Source: Halorussus litoreus | GTDB lineage: Archaea; Halobacteriota; Halobacteria; Halobacteriales; Haladaptataceae | Assembly (NCBI RefSeq): GCF_003382685.1 | Contig: NZ_KZ859510.1 | Span: 1 to 47,688 of the forward strand | Length of the DNA: 47,688 bases | Direction: 5' to 3' | In this document: positions 31,984 through 42,814 of the stretch, piece after piece | How positions within the stretch are numbered: the first letter of the stretch is position 1 | Layout: each line of letters begins with the position of its first letter | Notes under the pieces: generated by a model | Told to the model about the DNA's origin: nothing | Database searches by the model: none | What the model saw: only the letters and a program-made list of their open reading frames with translations | Program-made: the position numbers and the translations under genes

Positions 31984-32961
31984 TCAGACGGTCTCTATCG
32001 TGTCTTGGTCTCCGAGCAGGTACGCCAGCAGCGCCTTCTGGACGTGCATCCGGTTCTCGGCCTGCTCGAAGACGACCGCGCGGTCGCCGTCGAGCACCTC
32101 GCTGGTGATCTCCTCGCCCCGATGGGCCGGCAGACAGTGCATCACGGCCGCGTCGGGCGCGCTCGCGAGCAGGTCGTCGTTCACCTGGAACTCCTCGAAG
32201 TCGGCGATCTTCTCCTCGCGGTCGTCCTCCTGACCCATGCTGACCCAGACGTCGGTGTACACCACGTCCGCACCCGCAACGGCGGCTTCCGGGTCGTGGA
32301 CGACCTCCGGCGCGGTCCCGCGCGCGTCGGCCCGCGAGAGGACCTCCGCGTCGGGTTCGTACCCCTCGGGCGTCGCCATCGTGAGGTCGATCCCCGCCAT
32401 CGCGGCCCCCACCGCGAACGACTGGGCGACGTTGTTGCCGTCGCCGACCCACGCGACCGACGCGTCCTCGAACCCGTCGAACAGTTCGTAGACGGTGAAC
32501 AGGTCCGCGAGCGTCTGACACGGGTGGGCGTCGTCCGAGAGGCCGTTTATCACCGGGACCGAGCTTCCGGCCGCCATCGATTCGAGGGCGTCGTGGTCGA
32601 ACACCCGGGCCATCATCGCGTCGACGTACCGCGAGAGGGCGCGGGCGGTGTCGCCGACCGGCTCCCCGCGGTCGAGCTGGGTGTCGCCCGGCCCGAGGAA
32701 CAGCGCGTGGCCGCCGAGTTGGGTCATCCCCGCCTCGAAGGAGACGCGGGTCCGCGTACTCGGCTTCTCGAACAACATCGCGAGGCTCCGGTTCGGCAAG
32801 AGTGCGTGGGGCTCGCCTCGCCGGTGGGCCGCCTTCAGGTCCGCGGCGGTCGAGAGCACCGCCGCGAGGTCGTCGTCCGAGAGGTCGTCCACGTCGAGGA
32901 CGTGCTGTGGCGATTCGTCGGCGTTCGGTGCGGGCGTGGTATGGGTCGCGTACTCGTTCAT
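31984..32961 (-). CDS. argF: Ornithine carbamoyltransferase
   Basis: A 325-residue transferase that joins ornithine and carbamoyl phosphate into citrulline. The carbamoyl-phosphate motif is STRTRVSFE, the second ligand loop HPCQTLAD, and the ornithine-binding Cys loop MHCLPAHRGEE. The start at 32961 is MNEYATH..., overlapping the argE stop by 4 nt (ATGA type); the frame is open 44 codons further upstream, but that region is argE in another frame. It is the last gene of argW-argF. carAB for carbamoyl phosphate is not in the window. Confidence 0.95.
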   Translation of the reverse strand: MNEYATHTTPAPNADESPQHVLDVDDLSDDDLAAVLSTAADLKAAHRRGEPHALLPNRSLAMLFEKPSTRTRVSFEAGMTQLGGHALFLGPGDTQLDRGEPVGDTARALSRYVDAMMARVFDHDALESMAAGSSVPVINGLSDDAHPCQTLADLFTVYELFDGFEDASVAWVGDGNNVAQSFAVGAAMAGIDLTMATPEGYEPDAEVLSRADARGTAPEVVHDPEAAVAGADVVYTDVWVSMGQEDDREEKIADFEEFQVNDDLLASAPDAAVMHCLPAHRGEEITSEVLDGDRAVVFEQAENRMHVQKALLAYLLGDQDTIETV

Positions 32962-34052
32962 GGTTGCAGGTCCTCGCAGACGTCGGTCAAGACCGCGACT
33001 GCGCGGTCGAACTCCGCGAGATCGAGGCGTTCGTTCGGCGCGTGATCCAACTCGGAGTCGCCGGGACCGTAGGTCGCCATCGGGCAGTCCCACGCCCCGG
33101 CGAAGATGTTCATGTCGCTGGTGCCGGTCTTTCGGAGCAGTCGGGGGTCGCCCCCGGCTCGTCGGATGGTGACCCGGAACGCCCGCGCTACCTCGGTCCG
33201 CGGGCTCTCCATCACGGGCGGGATGGGCTCGCGCCAGTCGATTTCACCCTCATTCGCTTCTCCGTCCAGGGCTGTTTCGACCGCGCTCCGGACCGCGCCG
33301 GCCGATTCGCCGGGCGGAATCCGGAACTGGGCCGCCACGCTCGCCTCGACCGAGAGGCCGTCGTCGGCGGTGCCCCCGGAGAACTCGACCGGCTTGGCCG
33401 TGACCTGCTCGAAGACGGATGCGTCGGCGTCGGTTTCGCCATCGGTTTCCTCGTCGGTGTCCGCGCTCTCGAACTCGCGCTCGACCGTCTCCCACCACGC
33501 CATCGCGTGCTGGATGGCGTTGGGCTCCGGCCGGGAGGTGTGGGTCGAGTCGGTCCCGACCGCGTACTCGCCGGCGAGAAACCCCCGGTAGCCCAGCGTC
33601 ACGCCGTCCCAGCCGGAGGGCTCGCCGTTGACCACCGCGTCGGGCGCGTCGCGGTCCTCCACGAGGAAGCGCGCGCCCCGGGAGTTGGTCTCCTCGCCGA
33701 CCACGCCGACGTAGCTGACGCCGGTTTCGACCGCCGCGGCAGCCATCGACGCGAGCGGTCCCTTCGCGTCGACGCTCCCGCGACCCCAGAGCTCGCCGTC
33801 TTTCACTTCGACCGGAATCTCGCCCGGCACGGTGTCGACGTGCGAGGTCAGCAGCACCGCGTCGTCGGCGGGCGCGCGAACGTTGCCCACCTCGTCGACC
33901 CACACCTCGCGGGCGTGCTCCTCGAAGAACGCGGCGAGGCGCTCGGCGCACGCCGCCTCCTCGCCGGTGGGCGAGGGAATCTCCACGAGGTCGCGGAGTA
34001 GCTCGCGGGCCGCCCCATCTTCGACGCCGGCCGAGTCGCCGCTCGCGCTCAC
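32958..34052 (-). CDS. argE: [ArgW]-L-ornithine hydrolase (LysK/ArgE-like M20 peptidase)
   Basis: A 364-residue metallopeptidase of the M20 family that releases ornithine from the ArgW carrier protein. The first zinc His is in LLTSHVDTVPG, the bridging Asp in GRGSVDAKGPLASM, and the Glu pair in GVVGEETNSRGA; a later RKTGTSDMN segment matches LysK. The start is GTG 34052, overlapping the argD stop by 4 nt. An acidic low-complexity insertion (about 200-220, DTDEETDGETDAD) interrupts the dimerisation domain. LysK enzymes can serve lysine or arginine synthesis; the neighbours here are all arginine genes. Confidence 0.92.
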   Translation of the reverse strand: MSASGDSAGVEDGAARELLRDLVEIPSPTGEEAACAERLAAFFEEHAREVWVDEVGNVRAPADDAVLLTSHVDTVPGEIPVEVKDGELWGRGSVDAKGPLASMAAAAVETGVSYVGVVGEETNSRGARFLVEDRDAPDAVVNGEPSGWDGVTLGYRGFLAGEYAVGTDSTHTSRPEPNAIQHAMAWWETVEREFESADTDEETDGETDADASVFEQVTAKPVEFSGGTADDGLSVEASVAAQFRIPPGESAGAVRSAVETALDGEANEGEIDWREPIPPVMESPRTEVARAFRVTIRRAGGDPRLLRKTGTSDMNIFAGAWDCPMATYGPGDSELDHAPNERLDLAEFDRAVAVLTDVCEDLQP

Positions 34053-35188
34053 GCGGACACCTCCGCGAGCGCGTCTCCGAGCGCGGAAACGAGCGCGTCG
34101 GCGTGGGCCTCCTCGACGGTCAGCGGCGGGAGCAGGCGCACTACGGACCGTCCCGCGGGGAGCGCGAGAATCCCGTGGTCCATCGCCAACTGCTTCAGGA
34201 CGCGGTTCGCGCCCCGCCCGACCTCCACGCCGAGCAGCAGTCCCTCGCCGCGAACCGTGCGAATCGGTAACTCGCCACCCCTCAGTTTCGACTGGAGGTA
34301 GTCGCCGACCTGCCCGGCGTTCCCGGCCAGATCGTCCTCGACTATGGCCGAGAGGGTCGCCTCGGCCGCGGCGCTGACGACCGGGCCGCCCGAGAACGTC
34401 GAGCCGTGGGGGCCCGACTCCTCGGCGATCCAGTCGGCGCAGAGCGTGGCTCCGACCGGAAGCCCGCCGCCGAGCCCCTTCGCGGACGTGAGCACGTCGG
34501 GGACGACGCCGCGCTTCTCGCAGGCCCACAGCGAGCCGGTCCGGCCCAGCCCGGTCTGGATCTCGTCCAGAATCAGGGCTGCACCGGTCTCCTCGGTAAC
34601 TTCGCGTGCCGCTTGGAGATACCCTTCCGGCGCGGGGTTGACGCCGCCTTCGCCCTGAATCGGTTCGAGCAGGACTGCGGCCGTCTCGTCGTCGACGGCG
34701 TCGGCCAACGCGTCCTCGTCGCCGAACGGGACGAACTCGAAGTCGGCAGCCAGCGGCTCGAACGGCTTCTTGTACTTCGGTTTCCACGTCGCGGCGAGCG
34801 ACCCCATCGTGCGGCCGTGGAAACCGCGCTGGGCCGCGATGATTTTCGAATTGCCCGTCGCGCTCCGGGCGAACTTGAGCGCGGCCTCGTTGGCTTCGGT
34901 CCCTGAGTTGCAGAGCCAGACGTTCTCGAGGTGGTGGGGCGCGACCGCCCCGAGCTTCTCGTACAGCGCGTCGCGGGCCGAGTTGGGGTAGCTGGCTTGC
35001 ACGAACGTCAGCTTACCGACCTGCGACTCGACGGCCCCGACCACCTCGGGGTGGGCGTGGCCGACCGCCGCGACCCCGTAGCTCGCGCCGAAGTCGAGGT
35101 ACTCGTTTCCGGCGTCGTCGTAGAGGTACGGTCCCGATCCCGACTCGATGCGGATGGGCTTCTCCGAGTAGACGAAACTGCCCGTCAT
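34049..35188 (-). CDS. argD: [ArgW]-glutamate-5-semialdehyde aminotransferase
   Basis: A 379-residue class III PLP aminotransferase that transfers an amino group from glutamate to ArgW-bound glutamate semialdehyde, giving ArgW-bound ornithine. The PLP Lys is in LTSAKGLGGG, preceded by LILDEIQTGLGRTG with the Asp that binds the cofactor ring nitrogen. The GTEANEAALKFAR segment is the phosphate-binding loop. Length is normal for the ArgD/LysJ branch. It overlaps argB and argE by 4 nt each, so translation is probably coupled. Confidence 0.94.
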   Translation of the reverse strand: MTGSFVYSEKPIRIESGSGPYLYDDAGNEYLDFGASYGVAAVGHAHPEVVGAVESQVGKLTFVQASYPNSARDALYEKLGAVAPHHLENVWLCNSGTEANEAALKFARSATGNSKIIAAQRGFHGRTMGSLAATWKPKYKKPFEPLAADFEFVPFGDEDALADAVDDETAAVLLEPIQGEGGVNPAPEGYLQAAREVTEETGAALILDEIQTGLGRTGSLWACEKRGVVPDVLTSAKGLGGGLPVGATLCADWIAEESGPHGSTFSGGPVVSAAAEATLSAIVEDDLAGNAGQVGDYLQSKLRGGELPIRTVRGEGLLLGVEVGRGANRVLKQLAMDHGILALPAGRSVVRLLPPLTVEEAHADALVSALGDALAEVSA

Positions 35189-36210
35189 CTCACCGCCCCC
35201 GGGTGGAACTCGGTGCCGTGGCCGGTCCGCGCGGCCGTGATGGGGTCGCGGTTGTTCGCGTCCGCGACCGTCACCGAGGCCGCGCCGCCCTCCAGCGCCT
35301 CCACGGCGGCCATGACCTTCTTCGTCATGAACCCCTCCGCGGCGTCCTCGGCGGCGGCCAGTTCGGCTGGCGTCTCCACGGCGTCGACGAGCGTCGCCGA
35401 ATCGTCGGGGTCCTCGTAGAGGCCGGCCACGTCGGTCAACACGACCAGTTCGCCGCCGAGCGCGCCCGCGACCGCGGCGGCCGCGCGGTCGGCGTCGGCG
35501 TTGACGGGGGTGAACGCTCCGGCGGTTTCACCGCCACCGCCGCGGCCGGTCGAAGACGCGCCGCGCGTCTCCTCGCCCAGCATCGGGACCGTCACGACCG
35601 GGACGTAGCCCCCCGCGAGCAGGGTCGAGAGCAGGTCGGCGTTCACCGACTCGATCTTCCCGGAGTGGTCGCCGCGCCGGATCTTCTTCCGGCCGTCCTC
35701 GACGACCTTGACCGCGGACTTGCGCGGGCCGGTCAGGAGCTTGCCGTCCGCGCCCGACAGACCCACGGCGTTTACGCCCTGATTCTGGAGTCCGGCCACG
35801 AGGTCGGTGTTGAGCTTGCCCGGCAGCACCATCTCGAACGCCTCCATCGCGGTCTCGTCGGTGAACCGACCGACGACGCCGCCCGGCGTCTCGACGTACT
35901 CCGGTTCCTCTCCGAGGCGTTCGAGGGTGTCGTCTACTGCGGTCGAACCGCCGTGGACGACCACCACGTCCTCGCCGTTCGCGACCAGGTGGGCCACGTC
36001 CGCGAGCGCGCCCTCGGGGTCGACCGCGCGAGCGCCGCCGACCTTCACGACGACCGGCGGGTTCTCCTCTTGTGCATCACTGGCGACTCCGCCGTCGGTT
36101 CGGAGGCGGTCGTCGCCGAGGTCGTTGTCGATCAGCTTCGCGTGTGCCGATTCCAGTTCCGCCTTCGTGCCCGCGTCTCCGTTCGCGTCGAAATCTCCGT
36201 GCTCGGTCAT
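35185..36210 (-). CDS. argB: [ArgW]-glutamate kinase (LysZ/ArgB type)
   Basis: A 341-residue amino-acid kinase that phosphorylates the carrier-bound glutamate. Kinase motifs: VVVKVGGARA with the Lys (about 53-62), the VVVHGGSTAVDD glycine loop, and ADADRAAAAVAGAL near the ATP site. It is longer than usual. The first 50 residues are an acidic extension absent from typical LysZ, and a GASSTGRGGGG linker (about 214-224) sits just before the ATP-binding half. That linker region is encoded by two short DNA hairpins (35521-35535, 35555-35569). Overlaps argC and argD by 4 nt. Confidence 0.92.
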   Translation of the reverse strand: MTEHGDFDANGDAGTKAELESAHAKLIDNDLGDDRLRTDGGVASDAQEENPPVVVKVGGARAVDPEGALADVAHLVANGEDVVVVHGGSTAVDDTLERLGEEPEYVETPGGVVGRFTDETAMEAFEMVLPGKLNTDLVAGLQNQGVNAVGLSGADGKLLTGPRKSAVKVVEDGRKKIRRGDHSGKIESVNADLLSTLLAGGYVPVVTVPMLGEETRGASSTGRGGGGETAGAFTPVNADADRAAAAVAGALGGELVVLTDVAGLYEDPDDSATLVDAVETPAELAAAEDAAEGFMTKKVMAAVEALEGGAASVTVADANNRDPITAARTGHGTEFHPGAVR

Positions 36211-37298
36211 GGACTACCCACCGGGTGTAATCCCTGAAATTCGAGTCCCGCAGTCTCCTCGAAGCCGAGCGCGAGGTTGGCGGCGTGGACCGCCTGCCCG
36301 GCCGTTCCCTTCACCAGATTGTCGATGGCGCTGAACACCACGACGCGCTCGTTGCCGGGGTCGAGTTCGAATCCGACCTCGGCCATATTCGTCCCCGCGA
36401 CCGCCTTGGGCTCGGGATAGCGATACACGCCCGACCCGCCCGACTGGAGCCGGACGAACGGCTCGTCCTCGTAAGTTCCCCGGAAGGCTTTCCAGAGGTC
36501 GCCCTTCGAGACGGGCTGGTCGGGGAAGATATGGCAGGTCGCGGCCGCGCCGCGGACCATGTCGACCGCGTGGGCGGTGAACGACACCGAGCCGCCCAGT
36601 TCCTGTTCGATCTCGGCCTCGTGGCGGTGGCCGGTCGGTGCGTAGGGCCGCACGACGCCCGAGCGCTCGGGGTGGCTCCCGGCCTTGCTCGCGCCAGCAC
36701 CACCCTCCGAGGAGCCGACCTTCACGTCGGCGACGACGCGCTCGTCGCCGTCGCCACCCTCGCCGGACAGGATTCCGCTCTCGAACAGCGGATACAGCCC
36801 CAGGATCGTCGCGGTGGCGTTACAGCCGCCCGCCGCGATCAGGTCCGCGCCCGGTAGCTCCTCGCGGTGGAGTTCCGGCAGGGCGTAGACCGCCTCGTCG
36901 AGGTACTCGGGCGCGTCGTGGCCGTCGTACCACTCCTCGTACTGCGCTTCGGTGTTGAGCCGGAAGTCCGCGCTCAGGTCGACCACGGTGTCGGCGACCG
37001 CGTAGAACTCCTCGATCTGGCCCATCGAGAGGCCGTGGGGCGTCGCCGCGAACAGCACGTCCACCGAGTCGAGGTCGGCAGGTGAGGTAAATCGCAGGTC
37101 GGTCCCGCGGAGAGTGGGATGGACCGAGCCGACCGACTTGCCGGCGTATTCGCGGCTGGTCGCGCCCGCGAGGTCGAAATTAGGGTGTCCTGCGAGCAAA
37201 CGCAGGAGTTCGCCGCCCGCGAAGCCCGACCCGCCGACCACGGTGGCGGTGAGGGTGTCGGCGTCGGCGTCGCTCGTCGATTCTGTCTTCGCGGCCAT
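36207..37298 (-). CDS. argC: [ArgW]-glutamate-5-phosphate reductase (LysY/ArgC type)
   Basis: A 363-residue NADPH-dependent reductase that makes carrier-bound glutamate semialdehyde. The Rossmann start is VVGGSGFAGGELLRLL (about 20-35), the catalytic Cys is in AAGGCNATATI, and the LysY-type HPERSGVVRPY and GHRHEAEIEQEL segments follow, the latter with the active-site His. The first 17 residues are a polar acidic extension. Its start codon overlaps the argX stop by 1 nt and its stop overlaps the argB start by 4 nt. Assignment to arginine rather than lysine comes from the gene neighbourhood. Confidence 0.94.
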   Translation of the reverse strand: MAAKTESTSDADADTLTATVVGGSGFAGGELLRLLAGHPNFDLAGATSREYAGKSVGSVHPTLRGTDLRFTSPADLDSVDVLFAATPHGLSMGQIEEFYAVADTVVDLSADFRLNTEAQYEEWYDGHDAPEYLDEAVYALPELHREELPGADLIAAGGCNATATILGLYPLFESGILSGEGGDGDERVVADVKVGSSEGGAGASKAGSHPERSGVVRPYAPTGHRHEAEIEQELGGSVSFTAHAVDMVRGAAATCHIFPDQPVSKGDLWKAFRGTYEDEPFVRLQSGGSGVYRYPEPKAVAGTNMAEVGFELDPGNERVVVFSAIDNLVKGTAGQAVHAANLALGFEETAGLEFQGLHPVGSP

Positions 37299-38218
37299 CA
37301 GGCGACCACCTCCTGTTTTACGCCGTCCGCAGCTTTCGCTTCGAGCCAGTCGACGACTTCGGCGGGCACGTCCACGTCGGTCGCCTCGTTCAGCGCCTTG
37401 AACTCGACCGTGTGGTTGACCTCGTGGACGGTGTAGCCGGTCGCGTCCTGCGGCGTATCGCCGCTCGACGTTTCCGAGGCGCTTCGCGCCTCGCTCTCCA
37501 TCAGGTCGATGCCGAGCAGGCCGCCGCCGACCGCGTCGCTGGCCTGCTGGACCAGCTTCTCGGCTTCCGCGTCGAGTTCGAACTCAGCGGTCTCGGCACC
37601 CTTCGCGGCGTTCGTGAGCCAGTGGTCCGACGACCGGACCATCGCCGCGATGGGTTCGCCGTCCGTGGCGACCACGCGGATGTCCCTGCCGGGCTTGTCC
37701 ACGAACTCCTGAACGTAGAACACCTTGTGCTCGTAGTGGCCGAGGGTGGCCTTGTGCTCCAGGATCGCCTCGGCGGCGCTCCGGGAGTCGATCTTCGCCA
37801 TCAGGCGACCCCACGACCCGACCACGGGCTTGAGCACGCAGGGGTAGCCGAAGTTCTCGATGCTCTCCATCGCCGACTCCTTCGTGAACGACACCTCGGT
37901 CGCGGGCGTGGGAACGCCCGCACCCGCGAGCGCGAGGCTGTTCTGGACCTTGTCGGCGCAGATCTGGGCGGTCTCTGGTGAGTTGACGACCGGGATCCCG
38001 TACGCCTCGCAAAAGCGCGTGGCGTAGATGCTCCGGCTCGTTGCCAGACACCGGTCGACCACGAGATCCAGTTCCGCGAACACCTCGGGCGCTTCGGTCA
38101 GCCCGAACTGCTGGTCGCGCACGTCGATCTTCACCACGTCGTGGCCGCGCTCGCGGAGCTCCGACAGCAGGAGCTTCTCGTCCTTCCGGATCCGGGAGTA
38201 GAGTAATCCAATCTGCAA
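37298..38218 (-). CDS. argX: Glutamate-[ArgW] ligase (ArgX/LysX)
   Basis: A 306-residue ATP-grasp/RimK-like ligase that attaches glutamate to the C-terminal Glu of ArgW, the entry step of carrier-bound arginine synthesis. Typical segments are IGLLYSRIRKDEKLL at the N-terminus, YPCVLKPVVGSWGRLM for ATP binding and VHEVNHTVEFK with metal ligands. It starts with TTG one nucleotide after the argW stop, which suggests strict coupling to argW. A low-complexity linker (MESEARSASETSSGD, about 239-253) is encoded around a perfect GAGGCGC-TTC-GCGCCTC DNA hairpin (37476-37492), probably an insertion. Confidence 0.93.
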   Translation of the reverse strand: MQIGLLYSRIRKDEKLLLSELRERGHDVVKIDVRDQQFGLTEAPEVFAELDLVVDRCLATSRSIYATRFCEAYGIPVVNSPETAQICADKVQNSLALAGAGVPTPATEVSFTKESAMESIENFGYPCVLKPVVGSWGRLMAKIDSRSAAEAILEHKATLGHYEHKVFYVQEFVDKPGRDIRVVATDGEPIAAMVRSSDHWLTNAAKGAETAEFELDAEAEKLVQQASDAVGGGLLGIDLMESEARSASETSSGDTPQDATGYTVHEVNHTVEFKALNEATDVDVPAEVVDWLEAKAADGVKQEVVA

Positions 38219-38219
38219 G

Positions 38220-38384
38220 TTACTCCCCCCAGTCCTCTTCGAGCTCCGGGGCTCGATCGAGGACTGGCGGGGTCTGCTCGACGAGTTCGAGTTCCGCGCC
38301 GCAGGTCGTACAGTCGACGATCTCTCCTACCTCGCTGTCCTCGTGCAGGGTTACCTCCGCCCCGCACTCGACGCATTCTGTCAT
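38220..38384 (-). CDS. argW: Amino-group carrier protein ArgW (LysW)
   Basis: A 54-residue acidic carrier. The N-terminal half is a zinc ribbon with MTECVECG and CTTCG knuckles; the C-terminus is EDWGE, the signature of LysW/ArgW, whose last Glu is the attachment point for the glutamate that becomes ornithine. Each intermediate of the pathway is carried on it, which protects the alpha-amino group and offers an acidic surface to the enzymes. A strong Shine-Dalgarno GGAGGAG (38390-38396) lies 5 nt before the ATG, unlike most genes here, which look leaderless. It is the first gene of argWXCBDEF. Confidence 0.96.
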   Translation of the reverse strand: MTECVECGAEVTLHEDSEVGEIVDCTTCGAELELVEQTPPVLDRAPELEEDWGE

Positions 38385-38428
38385 AGCAACTCCTCCTATT
38401 CCGCTGTTACACTTAAACCCATCGAATT

Positions 38429-38444
38429 TGTAAAACAGGTTACA
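38429..38444. promoter_or_regulatory. Inverted repeat upstream of argW, possible operator
   Basis: TGTAA-AACAGG-TTACA: perfect 5-bp arms with a 6-bp spacer, 45-60 bp before the argW start. It overlaps a minus-strand TATA-like TTTTACAAAT (38427-38436), so a bound repressor could block a promoter here. The regulator is unknown. Confidence 0.35.
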
Positions 38445-38448
38445 TTAG

Positions 38449-38470
38449 AAAAAGGCGGCTCTAAAGCCGC
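38449..38470 (-). terminator. Hairpin with U-tract between argH and argW
   Basis: On the minus strand GCGGCT-TTAG-AGCCGC forms a perfect 6-bp stem, followed by C and five U. It lies 85 nt downstream of the argH stop and 65 nt before argW. It could end the argGH transcript or act as an attenuator in an argW leader. Confidence 0.6.
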
Positions 38471-38493
38471 GAGAGTGCAAAATCCGCCCCAAA

Positions 38494-38526
38494 CGAAGTC
38501 TGACTTCGGACTTCGATAGTATTTAA
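38494..38526 (-). promoter_or_regulatory. Upstream TATA box with overlapping inverted repeat, argH-argW spacer
   Basis: Minus-strand CTTAAATA (38520-38527) resembles a TATA box, giving a start near 38496. Between the box and that start lies CGAAGTC-TGACTTCG-GACTTCG on the plus strand (38494-38515). Its outer 7-bp arms are perfect and GACTTCG occurs twice. An operator over the start site is one reading. A second GC hairpin (GGTCCC-GAAG-GGGACC, 38530-38545) lies just after the argH stop. Confidence 0.4.
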
Positions 38527-38554
38527 GCTGGTCCCGAAGGGGACCGGCGGTCGC

Positions 38555-40066
38555 TCAGGCATACTGACTCACCTCCTCGTGCAGTCGGTCGCGGGCCGCG
38601 GCCAGCGACTCGCGCCGGTCGCCCAGCGCGCGCTCGTCGGCCGCGATCCCGTCCTGGGCCGCCGCGAGCCCCGCCGCCACGGCGTCCGGCGCGGGCCCGC
38701 CGGTCGAGTCGCGCGCCGCCACGCTCTCGACGGGGTCGAGCGCGGCCTCGACCGCTTCGCGTTCGACGTACGACGAGAGCGAGTCGCCGAGCACGTCCTC
38801 GGCGGCGGCGTCGAGCGCCGCGTAATCGGCTCCCGATTCCGAAGCCTTCGCGACCATCTCGTGGGCCTTCCGGAAGGGAAGGCCAGCCATCGCGAGCAGG
38901 TCGGCGACCCCGGTCGCGGTCGAGAACCCCTCGCCAGCCGCCTCGGCGAGCGCCTCCTCGTCCCACGTCGCGGTCGCCGCCGCGCCGGCGGCGACCGCGA
39001 CCGCCTCGGTCACGTCGTCGACCGTCTCCCACGCGTGGGGCGTCGCCTTCTGGAGGTCGCGGTTGTACGCCCGCGGCAGGCCCTTCAGTGTCGTGAGCAG
39101 GCCGTTCAGCCCCGCCGCGGCGTCTCCGGCGGTCGCCCGCACGAGTTCGAGCGTGTCGGGGTTCTTCTTCTGAGGCATGATCGAGGAGGTCGAGGAGTAG
39201 TCGTCCGACAACTCTGCGAGCCCCTTGTTCGAGAACACCACGAGATCCTCGGCGAACCCCGACACCGTCGCGGCGAGATTCGCGAGCGCGGCCACGACCT
39301 CCACGAGGAAGTCCCGTGTCGAGACCGCGTCCATCGAGTTGGAGACGACGCCGTCGCTACGCTTCGCTTGCGACGAGGTCACACTCGCTTCGCTCGCGTG
39401 ACCGCCGTCGAACCCGAGCAGGTCGGCGGTGCGCTCCCGATCCACGTCGAACGGCGTGCCGGCGAACGCGGCCGCGCCGAGCGGCGACCGGTTGACGCGC
39501 TCGTAGGCGTCGAACAGCCGGGCGGTGTCGCGCGCGACCGCCTGCTCGTACGAGAGCAGGTAGTGGCCCACGGTCGTGGGCTGGGCGGGCTGGAGGTGCG
39601 TGTAGCCGGGCATCACGATCTCGGCGTGCGCCTCGGCGGCTTCCGCGAGCGCCTCGCGGAGCGCGACGGTCGCCTCCACCGCGTCCAGCACGTCCTCGCG
39701 CAGGCGGTGCCGGATGCAGGTCGCCACCTCGTCGTTGCGCGAGCGAGCGGTGTGCATCTTCCCGCCCACGTCGCCCGCGCGGTCGACTACCGCGGTCTCG
39801 ATGGCGGCGTGCACGTCCTCGCCGTCGGGCAGGGCCGAGAACCCGTCCGCTTCGACCGCGTCGAGCGCGTCGAGGATGGCGGCGGCCTCGTCGTCGCCGA
39901 CGATCCCCTGCTCGGCCAGCATCACGACGTGCGCGCGGTCGACCGCGAGGTCTGCTGCGAAGATGCGCTCGTCGGCCGCGAGGCTGGAGAGGAACCCGCG
40001 TGCGGGGCCGCCGCTGAAGCGGTCGCGGCGCACCACGTCGGACGCGCTCTCGGGTTCCTCGCTCAC
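38555..40066 (-). CDS. argH: Argininosuccinate lyase
   Basis: A 503-residue fumarase/aspartase-superfamily enzyme that splits argininosuccinate into arginine and fumarate. The family signature is SSIMPQKKNPD, and the catalytic-His region is VMPGYTHLQPAQP. The start is GTG 40066, 3 nt after the argG stop, so the two genes form one unit. A Ser/Lys-rich stretch (HASEASVTSSQAKRSDGV, about 219-236) interrupts the middle and is encoded by a TTCGCT-rich, partly palindromic segment (39353-39402); it looks like a tolerated insertion. The C-terminal domain is Ala-rich and acidic. Confidence 0.95.
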   Translation of the reverse strand: MSEEPESASDVVRRDRFSGGPARGFLSSLAADERIFAADLAVDRAHVVMLAEQGIVGDDEAAAILDALDAVEADGFSALPDGEDVHAAIETAVVDRAGDVGGKMHTARSRNDEVATCIRHRLREDVLDAVEATVALREALAEAAEAHAEIVMPGYTHLQPAQPTTVGHYLLSYEQAVARDTARLFDAYERVNRSPLGAAAFAGTPFDVDRERTADLLGFDGGHASEASVTSSQAKRSDGVVSNSMDAVSTRDFLVEVVAALANLAATVSGFAEDLVVFSNKGLAELSDDYSSTSSIMPQKKNPDTLELVRATAGDAAAGLNGLLTTLKGLPRAYNRDLQKATPHAWETVDDVTEAVAVAAGAAATATWDEEALAEAAGEGFSTATGVADLLAMAGLPFRKAHEMVAKASESGADYAALDAAAEDVLGDSLSSYVEREAVEAALDPVESVAARDSTGGPAPDAVAAGLAAAQDGIAADERALGDRRESLAAARDRLHEEVSQYA

Positions 40067-40069
40067 GAA

Positions 40070-41323
40070 TTACTCCTCACCGTTGCCGTCGGCGAGCAGT
40101 TCCTCCTTCTTCGCCTCGGCGTCCTTCGCGACCGAATTGGCGAGCCGCGACTGGAAGCCGTGGTACTTGGCGACGCCGGTCGCGTCGGACTGGGCGATAC
40201 CGTCGACCGACTCGGTGTTGAACGAGGCGGCCGACTCGGAGTACACCGCGTAGTCGCTCTCGCGGGCGACCGGCCGGGCCTGCCCGCCCTCGAACTTGAC
40301 GGTGACTGTGCCGGTGACCTTCTTTTGGGTGGCCTCGACGAACCCGTCGAGGGCGTCCACGAGCGGGGCCGACAGCAGTCCTTCGTAGGCCTTCTCGGCC
40401 CACTGCTGGTCGACCTGCTTCTTGAAGTCGCGCTCCTCCTTCGTGAGAACCAGCCCTTCGAGCGCTTCGTGGGCATTCAGGAGAGTGGTCGCGGCGGGGT
40501 GCTCGTAGTTCTCGCGCACCTTCAGGCCGAGCATGCGGTCTTCCATCATGTCGGTGCGGCCGACCCCGTAGCTCCCCGCGAGGTCGTTGAGGTACTCGAT
40601 GAGCTGGACGGCGGGCAGTTCCTCGCCGTCGACCGCGACGGGGTCGCCGTCCTCGAAGGTGATCTCGATGGTCTCGAACGCGCCGTCCTCGGGCGCGTTC
40701 TCGCCGGGCGCGTCGGTCCACTCGTAGATGTCCTCCGGCGGGACGTAGCCCGGGTCTTCGAGGTCCGCGCCCTCGACCGACCGGCTCCAGAGGTTGGTGT
40801 CGATGCTCCAGTCGCCCTCGTTGCCGCCCTCGACGGGGAGGTCTTTCTTCGCGGCGTACTCCATCTCCCACTCGCGGGTCAGCCCGAGTTCGCGGACGGG
40901 CGCGATGACTTCGAGGTCGGACTCGCGCCACACCGCCTCGAAGCGGAGCTGGTCGTTCCCTTTGCCGGTGCAGCCGTGCGCGATGGCGTCGCAGCCCTGC
41001 TCTTTGGCCACGTCGAGGATGGCCTCGGCGATGACCGGGCGCGCGAGGGCGGTGCCGAGCGGGTAGCCCTGATACGTCGCGTTGGCGGTCACCGAGTCGA
41101 GGCACTGCTCTGCGAACTCGGCCTTGGCGTCGATCACGTAGTGGTCGAGATCGAGCGCCTCGGCGGTCTCCTCGGCCTCGTCGAACTCCTCGGCCGGCTG
41201 GCCGACGTCGACGGTGACGCCGATTACCTCGTCGTGGTCGTACTCCTCTTCGAGCAGCGGGACGCAAACTGTGGTGTCGAGCCCGCCGGAGAAGGCGAGC
41301 GCGACTTTCGATTGTGCTGTCAT
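40070..41323 (-). CDS. argG: Argininosuccinate synthase
   Basis: A 417-residue ligase that condenses citrulline and aspartate with ATP. The N-terminal PP-loop is VALAFSGGLDTTV (about 7-19), and later GCTGKGNDQLRFE and VGRTDMMEDRMLGLKVRE are family segments. ATG 41323 gives the expected N-terminus. No TATA box lies at the leaderless distance. The best promoter (CGAAA then TTTAAA, 41565-41578) is about 220 nt upstream and would place a long leader containing a 31-codon ORF in front of argG. Confidence 0.96.
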   Translation of the reverse strand: MTAQSKVALAFSGGLDTTVCVPLLEEEYDHDEVIGVTVDVGQPAEEFDEAEETAEALDLDHYVIDAKAEFAEQCLDSVTANATYQGYPLGTALARPVIAEAILDVAKEQGCDAIAHGCTGKGNDQLRFEAVWRESDLEVIAPVRELGLTREWEMEYAAKKDLPVEGGNEGDWSIDTNLWSRSVEGADLEDPGYVPPEDIYEWTDAPGENAPEDGAFETIEITFEDGDPVAVDGEELPAVQLIEYLNDLAGSYGVGRTDMMEDRMLGLKVRENYEHPAATTLLNAHEALEGLVLTKEERDFKKQVDQQWAEKAYEGLLSAPLVDALDGFVEATQKKVTGTVTVKFEGGQARPVARESDYAVYSESAASFNTESVDGIAQSDATGVAKYHGFQSRLANSVAKDAEAKKEELLADGNGEE

Positions 41324-41384
41324 TGTGATGTGTTGGGTGGTTGTCGTCGGGTGTCGTGTGGTGTCGTCAGACGTGGTTATCGAA

Positions 41385-41398
41385 CGATACGGGTATCG
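41385..41398. promoter_or_regulatory. Inverted repeat in the argG leader
   Basis: CGATAC-GG-GTATCG has perfect 6-bp arms and lies 62-75 bp before the argG ATG, between the leader ORF stop and argG. It could be an operator, since a weak minus-strand GATAACC flanks it, or a short RNA stem. Confidence 0.35.
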
Positions 41399-41443
41399 TC
41401 AGCGGGAAACTCGACGGTGTCGAAGGAGTAGGTGGTAGTGGGG

Positions 41444-41539
41444 CTAGGGACGCCCCGGTCGTCGTCGCGGCACGAGAACGAGCGCGGACCCACGGCTCCC
41501 GGCGACCGCGAACGTGCCGGAACCGCGAGTCCCTGTCAT
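41444..41539 (-). CDS. Possible Arg-rich leader peptide upstream of argG
   Basis: A 31-codon ATG-to-TAG frame. The ATG is 28 bp from the centre of a strong BRE/TATA promoter, exactly the leaderless spacing, so a transcript would begin on this ORF. Six of 31 residues are Arg, including three successive CGA codons shortly before the stop (the peptide ends PRRRPGRP). It ends 120 nt before argG, with an inverted repeat between. This is the layout of an attenuation leader, but no classical terminator with a U-tract follows. Too short for comparison by eye, and it may be chance in GC-rich DNA. Confidence 0.4.
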   Translation of the reverse strand: MTGTRGSGTFAVAGSRGSALVLVPRRRPGRP

Positions 41540-41564
41540 CACCTCTACCTTCTGCCCCCACGGA

Positions 41565-41578
41565 TTTAAACTCTTTCG
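41565..41578 (-). promoter_or_regulatory. BRE/TATA promoter upstream of argG
   Basis: On the minus strand CGAAAGAGTTTAAA joins a BRE (CGAAA, 41574-41578) to a TATA box (TTTAAA, 41565-41570). It predicts a transcript start near 41540. Confidence 0.65.
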
Positions 41579-41722
41579 GGATGGCAACGTTTGCGGCCGA
41601 GGATGTGACACCTAATACCGTTTTAGGTTTCGTTTCGCTACTATCGTTCTCTTTCGGTGGGATGACTGTTGGCTGTACCTCTCTGTGGCTGTGAACTTCT
41701 TCTATCTGAAAGGATCTGGAGG

Positions 41723-41755
41723 GGTTGTGGAGAGGTTGTGGAGAGGTTGTGGAGA
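41723..41755. repeat. Three 11-bp tandem repeats
   Basis: GGTTGTGGAGA occurs three times head to tail without mismatch, followed by related GGTTGCGGGGG sequence. No coding frame is supported. Confidence 0.8.
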
Positions 41756-41850
41756 GAGTTTGGTGGTTGCGGGGGTGCGGTTGCGGTAACTCATTTGCTC
41801 AAGCAGAAGCTAGCTCCGTACTGTACTTCGTGTCTGTCTTTGAGAGGGTT

Positions 41851-42093
41851 GAGCTAGCTACTGCTTGAGCCTCGGAGACACCGCACAGCACCGCAACCGC
41901 GACCGCACAGCACCGTAACCGCGACCGCACAGCACTGCAACCCTGACCGCACGGCACCGCAACCGCGACCGCGGGCCTCAACACCTCCCCAACCGCTTGC
42001 GCTCCTCGGCCTTCGCGATGCTCCGGCCTGCGGTGCTCGTCCCTCGCACGCTAGGACGCGGCGCGTTCCCGCGCCGCGCCCAAACGCGCGCCG
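41851..42093 (+). repeat. Dispersed repeat family, copy 3 (longest)
   Basis: Runs AGCTAGCTACTGCTTGAGCC, four 22-bp tandem units (41881-41968), CCTCAACACCTCCCCAACC, a TCGGCC block, TCGTCCCTCGCACGCTAGG, a GC hairpin with 9-bp perfect arms (42057-42065 and 42070-42078), and ends near AACGCGCGCC. The same ordered blocks occur at 4318-4470 and inverted at 11533-11705. Together with the argG leader and the 11-bp repeats it fills the 912-bp gap between argG and the LigT-like gene. Confidence 0.7.
41881..41968 (+). repeat. Four 22-bp tandem repeats
   Basis: Units at 41881-41902, 41903-41924, 41925-41946 and 41947-41968 follow CCGCACAGCACCGCAACCGC plus GA. Unit 2 has one change, unit 3 three, unit 4 one. 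There are no spacers, so this is not a CRISPR array. The related copies at about 4.3 kb and 11.6 kb have about one unit each. Confidence 0.85.
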
Positions 42094-42235: not shown

Positions 42236-42814
42236 ATGTCGGACTCACCGCCAGTGTACAGCCTCAACGTCCCGATCCCGGGTGAGGTCGAGCGCCTCGC
42301 CGACGAACTCCACCCTGCACTGCTGGATTTCGACAAGATCCGGGAGCGCCACTCGCTCGTCTGCAAGCGGCTGGGCCAGGGTCCGGTGGACGGGAAGGGC
42401 GCGAACGGTGCGAGCTGGGGCTCCTCGCGCGCGGAGCGACGCCGCGACGTTCCGCGGTTGCGCGAGCAGGTCCGCACCCGGCTCACGGGCGCGCCGGTCT
42501 TCGAGGCCAAGATCACGGGCATCGACTACTTCGCGCGACCACCGTTCGGCAGTGGCCCCGTGGTCTACCTCGCGGTCGAGAGCCCCGGTCTCTGGCAGAC
42601 CCACCGCCGGATGCTCCCGCAGTTCTCGGCGGTCGACGAGTTCGAGGGCGACGACTACTCGCCGCACGTCACGTTGGCTCGCGGCGGGAAGATCGAGGAC
42701 GCCCGGCGACTCGCCGAGCGCGAGATCGAACCGGTGACGTGGACGGTCACGCGACTGACCCTCTGGGACGCCAAGTACGCCGAGCCGGTCGCGGAGTTCC
42801 CGCTGCCGGCGTAG
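42236..42814 (+). CDS. 2H phosphoesterase, LigT-like (2'-5' RNA ligase family)
   Basis: A 192-residue protein of the 2H phosphoesterase superfamily, which act on 2',3'-cyclic or 2'-5' phosphodiester bonds in RNA. The two His motifs are RHSLVCKRLG (about residues 37-46) and SPHVTLARGG (about 142-151), matching the H-x-T/S-h pattern, with a normal spacing. A Gly/Ser/Arg-rich stretch (KGANGASWGSSRAERRRD, about 55-72) separates the lobes and contains a short DNA hairpin (GCTCC...GGAGC, 42420-42437). The substrate in vivo is unknown. It stands between a repeat-rich gap and the RHH gene. Confidence 0.85.
   Translation: MSDSPPVYSLNVPIPGEVERLADELHPALLDFDKIRERHSLVCKRLGQGPVDGKGANGASWGSSRAERRRDVPRLREQVRTRLTGAPVFEAKITGIDYFARPPFGSGPVVYLAVESPGLWQTHRRMLPQFSAVDEFEGDDYSPHVTLARGGKIEDARRLAEREIEPVTWTVTRLTLWDAKYAEPVAEFPLPA

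Follow-up and report, generated by a model that had tools for sequence, protein, structure and literature searches.

A class-wide leader ORF with arginine codons and a stop-codon hairpin suggests ribosome-mediated attenuation of the haloarchaeal argG-argF operon

It is textbook knowledge that bacteria control amino-acid operons by translating leader peptides. The attenuators of the trp, his, leu and ilv type have a short leader ORF before the biosynthetic operon, cognate codons in series and a stop codon in the first hairpin, the 5′ arm of which would be covered by a stalled ribosome; the locus described here shares all of these features. The E. coli pyrBI attenuator uses a single hairpin whose folding is blocked by a close ribosome, which resembles the model that we propose below, but it senses UTP via polymerase pausing rather than an aminoacyl-tRNA and ends in a U-tract terminator. 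In fungi, the arginine attenuator peptide encoded by the CPA1/arg-2 uORF acts through its conserved peptide sequence. For archaea, the open-access literature yielded no description of leader-peptide attenuation. A start-site study in H. volcanii listed 16 uORFs in 5′ UTRs of 150-250 nt, all with a low isoelectric point and some preceding tRNA-ligase genes; argG and ilvB are not among the 16, no codon-hairpin logic was described, and translational control by structured leaders was judged untypical of haloarchaea (PMC4983044). In the same species, the main intergenic terminator signal is a T-run, transcripts can end near hairpins, and one such hairpin terminated with 59% efficiency in a reporter (PMC7237163).

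The stretch of DNA analyzed here (the window, 47,688 nt from Halorussus litoreus) contains argG, the first gene of an arginine operon, preceded by a leader with the following elements, all on the minus strand.

41565..41580, minus: leader promoter, BRE-like CCCGAAAG plus TATA box TTTAAA (from sequence; start predicted at the ATG at 41539)
41444..41539, minus: leader ORF of 31 codons, MTGTRGSGTFAVAGSRGSALVLVPRRRPGRP followed by the stop (from the frame and gap lengths in the genus alignment)
41517..41532, minus: 5′ arm (A) of the start-proximal stem, GGACTCGCGGTTCCGG (compensated substitutions among the aligned Halorussus leaders, predicted fold)
41486..41501, minus: 3′ arm (B) of the start-proximal stem, CGGGAGCCGTGGGTCC (same evidence as for arm A)
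41459..41467, minus: putative regulatory codons CGA CGA CGA (codon reading and class-wide CGA preference)
41440..41456, minus: hairpin P, GGGGC(GTCCCTA)GCCCC (class-wide compensatory pair types)
41424..41439, minus: G-free tract ACTACCACCTACTCCT, 16 nt, directly 3′ of P (class-wide G counts)

We consider it probable that this leader is a ribosome-mediated attenuator of the argG-argF operon which senses charged arginyl-tRNA via the leader peptide. Sequence comparison gives good support to the view that it senses an amino acid through a leader peptide, and from its anatomy we infer ribosome stalling, a direction of regulation and an output step, which could be termination, translation or decay. 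Like known ribosome-mediated attenuators, the leader has a short ORF conserved in frame, a series of cognate codons and a structure positioned for control by the ribosome. It differs from the bacterial examples in its archaeal host, its leaderless ORF and an extra stem near the start codon, and also in having a 16-nt G-free tract and no U-tract terminator. Because neither antiterminator pairing nor a U-tract terminator was found, the argG leader falls outside the trp subtype: pairing of the P arms with the downstream region does not exceed that in shuffles at class level, no T-run lies 3′ of P (the tract is G-free instead), and a scan for intrinsic terminators returned no GC hairpin with a U-run, a sigma-70 scan also being empty. 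The fungal system likewise places a uORF before an arginine gene, but the argG leader peptide is not conserved.

Upstream of argG, the minus strand carries CCGAAAGAGTTTAAA and then, at leaderless spacing, the ATG at 41539; the promoter sequence CCCGAAAGAGTTTAAA occupies positions 41580-41565. From the first T of the TATA box to this ATG there are 31 nt, a leaderless spacing shared by most of the genus; TTTAA is present in 17 of 18 Halorussus genomes (the 18th has the variant ATTAA), and across the class the leader ATG usually lies 30-34 nt 3′ of the TATA box. A preliminary description of this DNA had proposed that a BRE and TTTAAA give a leaderless start on a 31-codon ORF with six Arg codons, three of them consecutive CGA, ending 120 nt before argG. 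Each of these elements is present in the sequence: the Arg codons are CGC, CGT, three CGA and CGT, and 120 nt separate the leader stop from the argG ATG. The comparison across relatives that it had suggested bears it out as well, in that loss of the ORF from close relatives, which it had named as counter-evidence, did not occur; the ORF is retained in 18/18 Halorussus genomes with its start, a CGA tract two to four codons long and the hairpin at the stop, and, changed in sequence, it persists in most of the 91 argG upstream regions compared across the class. The genus alignment has 40 gap runs within the ORF, each of exactly 3 nt, which supports translation; 3′ of the leader stop, multiples of 3 account for 25 of 57 gap runs. 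The ORF is probably translated in vivo, from a transcript that is predicted to start on its ATG.

The hairpin at the end of the ORF, the start-proximal stem and the G-free tract were absent from that description. Hairpin P begins two bases 3′ of the CGA tract and contains the stop codon TAG (41444-41446). Its stem varies within the class (GGGGTC/GACCCC, GGGCC/GGCCC, GGCCC/GGGCC), and the pair types change in a compensatory way across 63 different hairpins, a count for which the arms were picked for complementarity and which is weaker in a MAFFT alignment. The last Arg codon starts 1-5 nt 5′ of the P arm in all 83 leaders counted. Ribosomes shield roughly 12 nt 3′ of the first A-site base; on this geometry, one stalled at either of the last two CGA codons would occupy the entire 5′ arm of P and one stalled at the first would touch it, so that P folding would depend on ribosome position. 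Directly 3′ of P, G makes up 0-7% (mostly 0-2%) at each of positions 0-15 across the class, and the nearly G-free stretch is 16-17 nt long. The start-proximal stem A:B pairs codons 3-8 with codons 13-18, and both stems are present in the predicted fold of the leader, the whole of which is no more stable than its shuffles (z -0.18). Two-sided changes occur in 6 of 17 consensus pairs of the genus alignment, and the start-proximal stem ranks 5 or better among 100 codon shuffles in 45 of 83 leaders, with about 5 expected.

Across the class Halobacteria, a first search found a short ORF with terminal Arg codons and a stop hairpin in 86 of the 91 argG upstream regions that were long enough to judge; three doubtful regions (L069, L085 and L109) were omitted from the statistics. 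Because this search had filtered on the hairpin, a strict signature was run on shuffles and other windows too. It occurs in 75 of 91 argG upstream regions, whereas none of 1820 dinucleotide shuffles and none of 2193 windows from elsewhere in the genomes contain it. R1, a covariance model built on the argG hairpin region, has matches in 205 of 242 genomes and in 68 of 74 genera, usually a single one in each genome, and its strong matches (18/18 in the genus and 30/30 fetched from the class, 48 together) all lie just before argG on the same strand. Most of 20 genomes that have no R1 match carry a diverged copy recognizable by eye; L189, whose argG is distant (59% identity), has no diverged leader copy. 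Genomes of the Halonotius and Halohasta type (L085, L088, L096, L174, L175) have diverged argG leaders, with QRRLRRL early in the ORF and a weak or altered hairpin. Upstream of argG in L053 and L069, the leader is enlarged by repeats (GACAGAGAGG and CAGTCGG/CCGACGAC), apparently through local repeat expansion.

The layout is also specific. We used a detector that is blind to the amino acid, combining a TATA-like box, an ORF, a stem round the stop and, directly after that, 16 nt with no more than one G. Applied to both strands of the window, it found the argG leader only; other loci, amounting to 892 kb when both strands are counted, gave 58 matches, all 58 of them argG leaders, and 2.0 Mb (about 54%) of one Halorussus chromosome again gave the argG leader only. 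A relaxed version added four matches, which were unconvincing. Since the scans of these parts gave argG leaders only, such leaders appear to be few per genome.

In Halorussus, a leader of the same anatomy precedes ilvB, which encodes the acetolactate synthase of the isoleucine/valine pathway. It comprises a TATA-like box, an ORF, a start-proximal stem (CGACAGTC/GACTGTCG or the compensated CGACGGTC/GGCCGTCG), Val-Ile-Ile-Val codons, a stop hairpin, TGTAGGGGC(CTGA)GCCCCTACA, and a G-free tract. Separate models were built for argG and ilvB because a joint alignment was poor; the ilvB model matched 58 of 116 genomes at E 0.05, weaker matches being taken unchecked, and all 30 matches fetched from the class lie upstream of ilvB on the same strand. 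As the argG and ilvB leader sequences are unrelated, the ilvB layout amounts to an independent test of attenuation, which the hypothesis passed. Both leaders favor codons that are rare in the window genes: CGA accounts for 247 of 320 Arg codons among the last nine codons of class argG leaders against 15 of 185 in window genes, ATT for 54 of 75 Ile codons of ilvB leaders against 9 of 100, and GTA for 51 of 79 Val codons against 9 of 353, a bias that may come partly from hairpin constraints where the codons overlap the hairpin. The ilvB leader of the H. litoreus genome itself lies at C12:108658-108713 (L263). The ilvB leader peptides end in VERVIIVGA or APIIVGV before the stop (loci L244-L261 and L262-L291); L245 has TGG instead of the stop TGA, so its leader may be read through. 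At hisG, trpC, pheS, leuA and hom in Halorussus, the detector found no comparable leader in whole-locus scans; the start codons of hisG and ilvB are hard to place, which makes their upstream views approximate. The trpC start in Halorussus (L208-L224) is covered by a strongly conserved block, TGTACAATTCCGTCCGTTRATGCACAATG, which by eye resembles an operator with repeated TGTACA/TGCACA, and because of these operator-like repeats trp control seems to be exerted by a DNA-binding factor.

Between the leader ORF and argG lies an inverted repeat, ACGATACCCGTATCGT, at 41384-41399. The preliminary description had placed an inverted repeat here, and it does exist; it is not the conserved structure, since relatives keep only part of it and are not regularly palindromic, and for that reason we set it aside as part of an operator or riboswitch. 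Most of it falls within a genus-level element.

41376..41394, minus: genus-level element ACCCGTATCGTTCGATAAC (consensus CCCGTATCGTCCGCGAAC), conserved in Halorussus only

The element at 41376-41399 (CCCGTATCGTCCGCGAAC) is partly complementary to the Arg-codon region, a pairing that has no statistical support at class level (Halorussus mean z -0.87).

Downstream of the leader, nine arginine genes follow on one strand, those after argG spanning 31984..40066.

40070..41323, minus: argG, argininosuccinate synthase (NF010392 and TIGR00032, over cut-off)
38555-40066, minus: argH (NCBIfam, ORF)
38220-38384, minus: lysW (NCBIfam, ORF)
37298-38218, minus: lysX/argX (NCBIfam, ORF)
36207-37298, minus: argC (NCBIfam, ORF)
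35185-36210, minus: argB (NCBIfam, ORF)
34049-35188, minus: argD (NCBIfam, ORF)
32958-34046, minus: lysK/argE (NCBIfam, ORF)
31984-32961, minus: argF (NCBIfam, ORF)

Their overlaps and common strand suggest that argG to argF are co-transcribed, and the leader could thus set the entire arginine pathway. In 41 non-Halorussus leaders (L036-L108), mostly from Haloferacales and Natrialbales, a TATA-like motif (e.g., GAATTTAAG) lies about 30 nt before the argG ATG; the motif is absent in Halorussus. Upstream of it, Haloferacales have a conserved block, CTATAGGCATCTCTACC. In these genomes, argG may have a second promoter and perhaps an operator too, and because of the TATA-like motif near argG the leader may not be its sole source of RNA there.

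As the class-wide conservation of ORF, Arg codons and hairpin is joined by an unrelated Ile/Val leader before ilvB, ribosome-mediated attenuation is the best explanation of the argG leader. Attenuation had also been the reading of the preliminary description, and the conserved elements and the ilvB parallel support it, except that the relevant hairpin is the one enclosing the stop and not the inverted repeat nearer to argG. As a plausible mechanism, transcription would begin on the ATG of the leaderless 31-codon ORF. With ample arginine, a ribosome would pass the CGA codons, reach the stop within P and depart, allowing P to fold; folded P together with the G-free tract would then reduce expression of the operon, most likely by transcription termination or by recruiting a termination or cleavage factor. 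Under a shortage of arginyl-tRNA, the ribosome would stall at CGA with its front edge over the 5′ arm of P, keeping P unfolded, and RNA polymerase would read through to argG. The start-proximal stem A:B may gate ribosome loading on the leader. We favor termination as the output because P and the tract persist where argG has a TATA-like motif nearby and because hairpins near transcript ends are documented in H. volcanii (PMC7237163). The chances seem to us evenly balanced that the two leaders represent a general, so far undescribed form of ribosome-mediated attenuation in haloarchaea. Its components would be a leaderless ORF, rare codons for the cognate amino acid, a stop-enclosing hairpin and a G-free tract that serves a factor-dependent terminator of archaeal type; it would control the arginine and branched-chain operons at least and would have been inherited class-wide. 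With the right codons in one layout at two operons, class-wide and including the genetic model genus Haloferax (loci L036, L045 and L050), these leaders point to translation-expression coupling in archaea, and they provide a compact, testable system for the control of archaeal termination or message fate.

The main competitor, to which we give roughly one chance in three, retains the same sensor and changes the output: ribosome position would set the translation or stability of the argG message without premature termination of transcription, either because a nuclease or another protein acts at P and the G-free tract or because termination on the uORF sets the supply of ribosomes at argG. The missing T-run 3′ of P fits this possibility, as does the long untranslated leader of Halorussus argG with an A/C-rich region before the ATG. 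However, P does not overlap the argG start, and the unit is kept where a TATA-like motif lies near argG, from which a transcript would lack the uORF.

Nascent-peptide arrest, in which the leader peptide and arginine as ligand would stall the ribosome as in the fungal arginine attenuator peptide, would account for a short uORF with an Arg-rich C terminus near the stop. We regard it as improbable: the frame over P shifts between genera, ending in RRPGR, RRPAL or RRRAL before the stop, and as this part of the peptide varies, what is kept is the codons and the RNA, not the peptide, which is poorly conserved while the RNA stem covaries. The ilvB leader, moreover, has equal anatomy and another peptide.

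Very unlikely is a reading in which P is an operator in the DNA, bound by a protein that represses or activates the arginine operon, with the ORF incidental. P is indeed an inverted repeat just 3′ of the promoter, and haloarchaeal transcription factors act at other amino-acid genes (the operator-like trpC repeats, seen by eye). Against this, the stem changes pair by pair and the loop ranges from 3 to 8 nt with the stop codon inside nearly every one, the ORF keeps its frame, and ilvB has a different stem and different codons. That the ORF encodes a small functional protein merely co-transcribed with argG finds some backing in the frame retained in the genus, but is scarcely credible given a leader peptide of 22 to over 50 residues with no cross-genus sequence conservation outside the Arg codons and stems. 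Just as implausible is an arginine-binding riboswitch with direct ligand sensing, which a conserved structured leader ahead of an amino-acid operon might suggest, but for which Rfam gave only weak matches, all far below gathering scores, in a leader of just two simple hairpins with an open frame of cognate codons and an Ile/Val parallel before ilvB.

Further features were seen around the leader. A possible H-type pseudoknot between leader and argG was recognized by eye in Haloarculaceae-like genomes (L073, L081, L105, L091, L092), the candidate being CCGCCC-ACC-GTCGGGT-TCT-GGGGCGG ... ACCCGAC with its end 10-30 nt before argG. In the window, the divergent neighbor at 42236-42814 encodes a 2′-5′ RNA ligase superfamily protein (PF13563). 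The intergenic region contains tandem repeats at 41708-41762 and 41880-41989, with about four 11-nt units (GAGAGGTTGTG) and four 22-nt units (ACCGCACAGCACCGCAACCGCG), respectively, and an imperfect inverted repeat at 41782-41885 whose 35-nt arms are 80% complementary and 34 nt apart.
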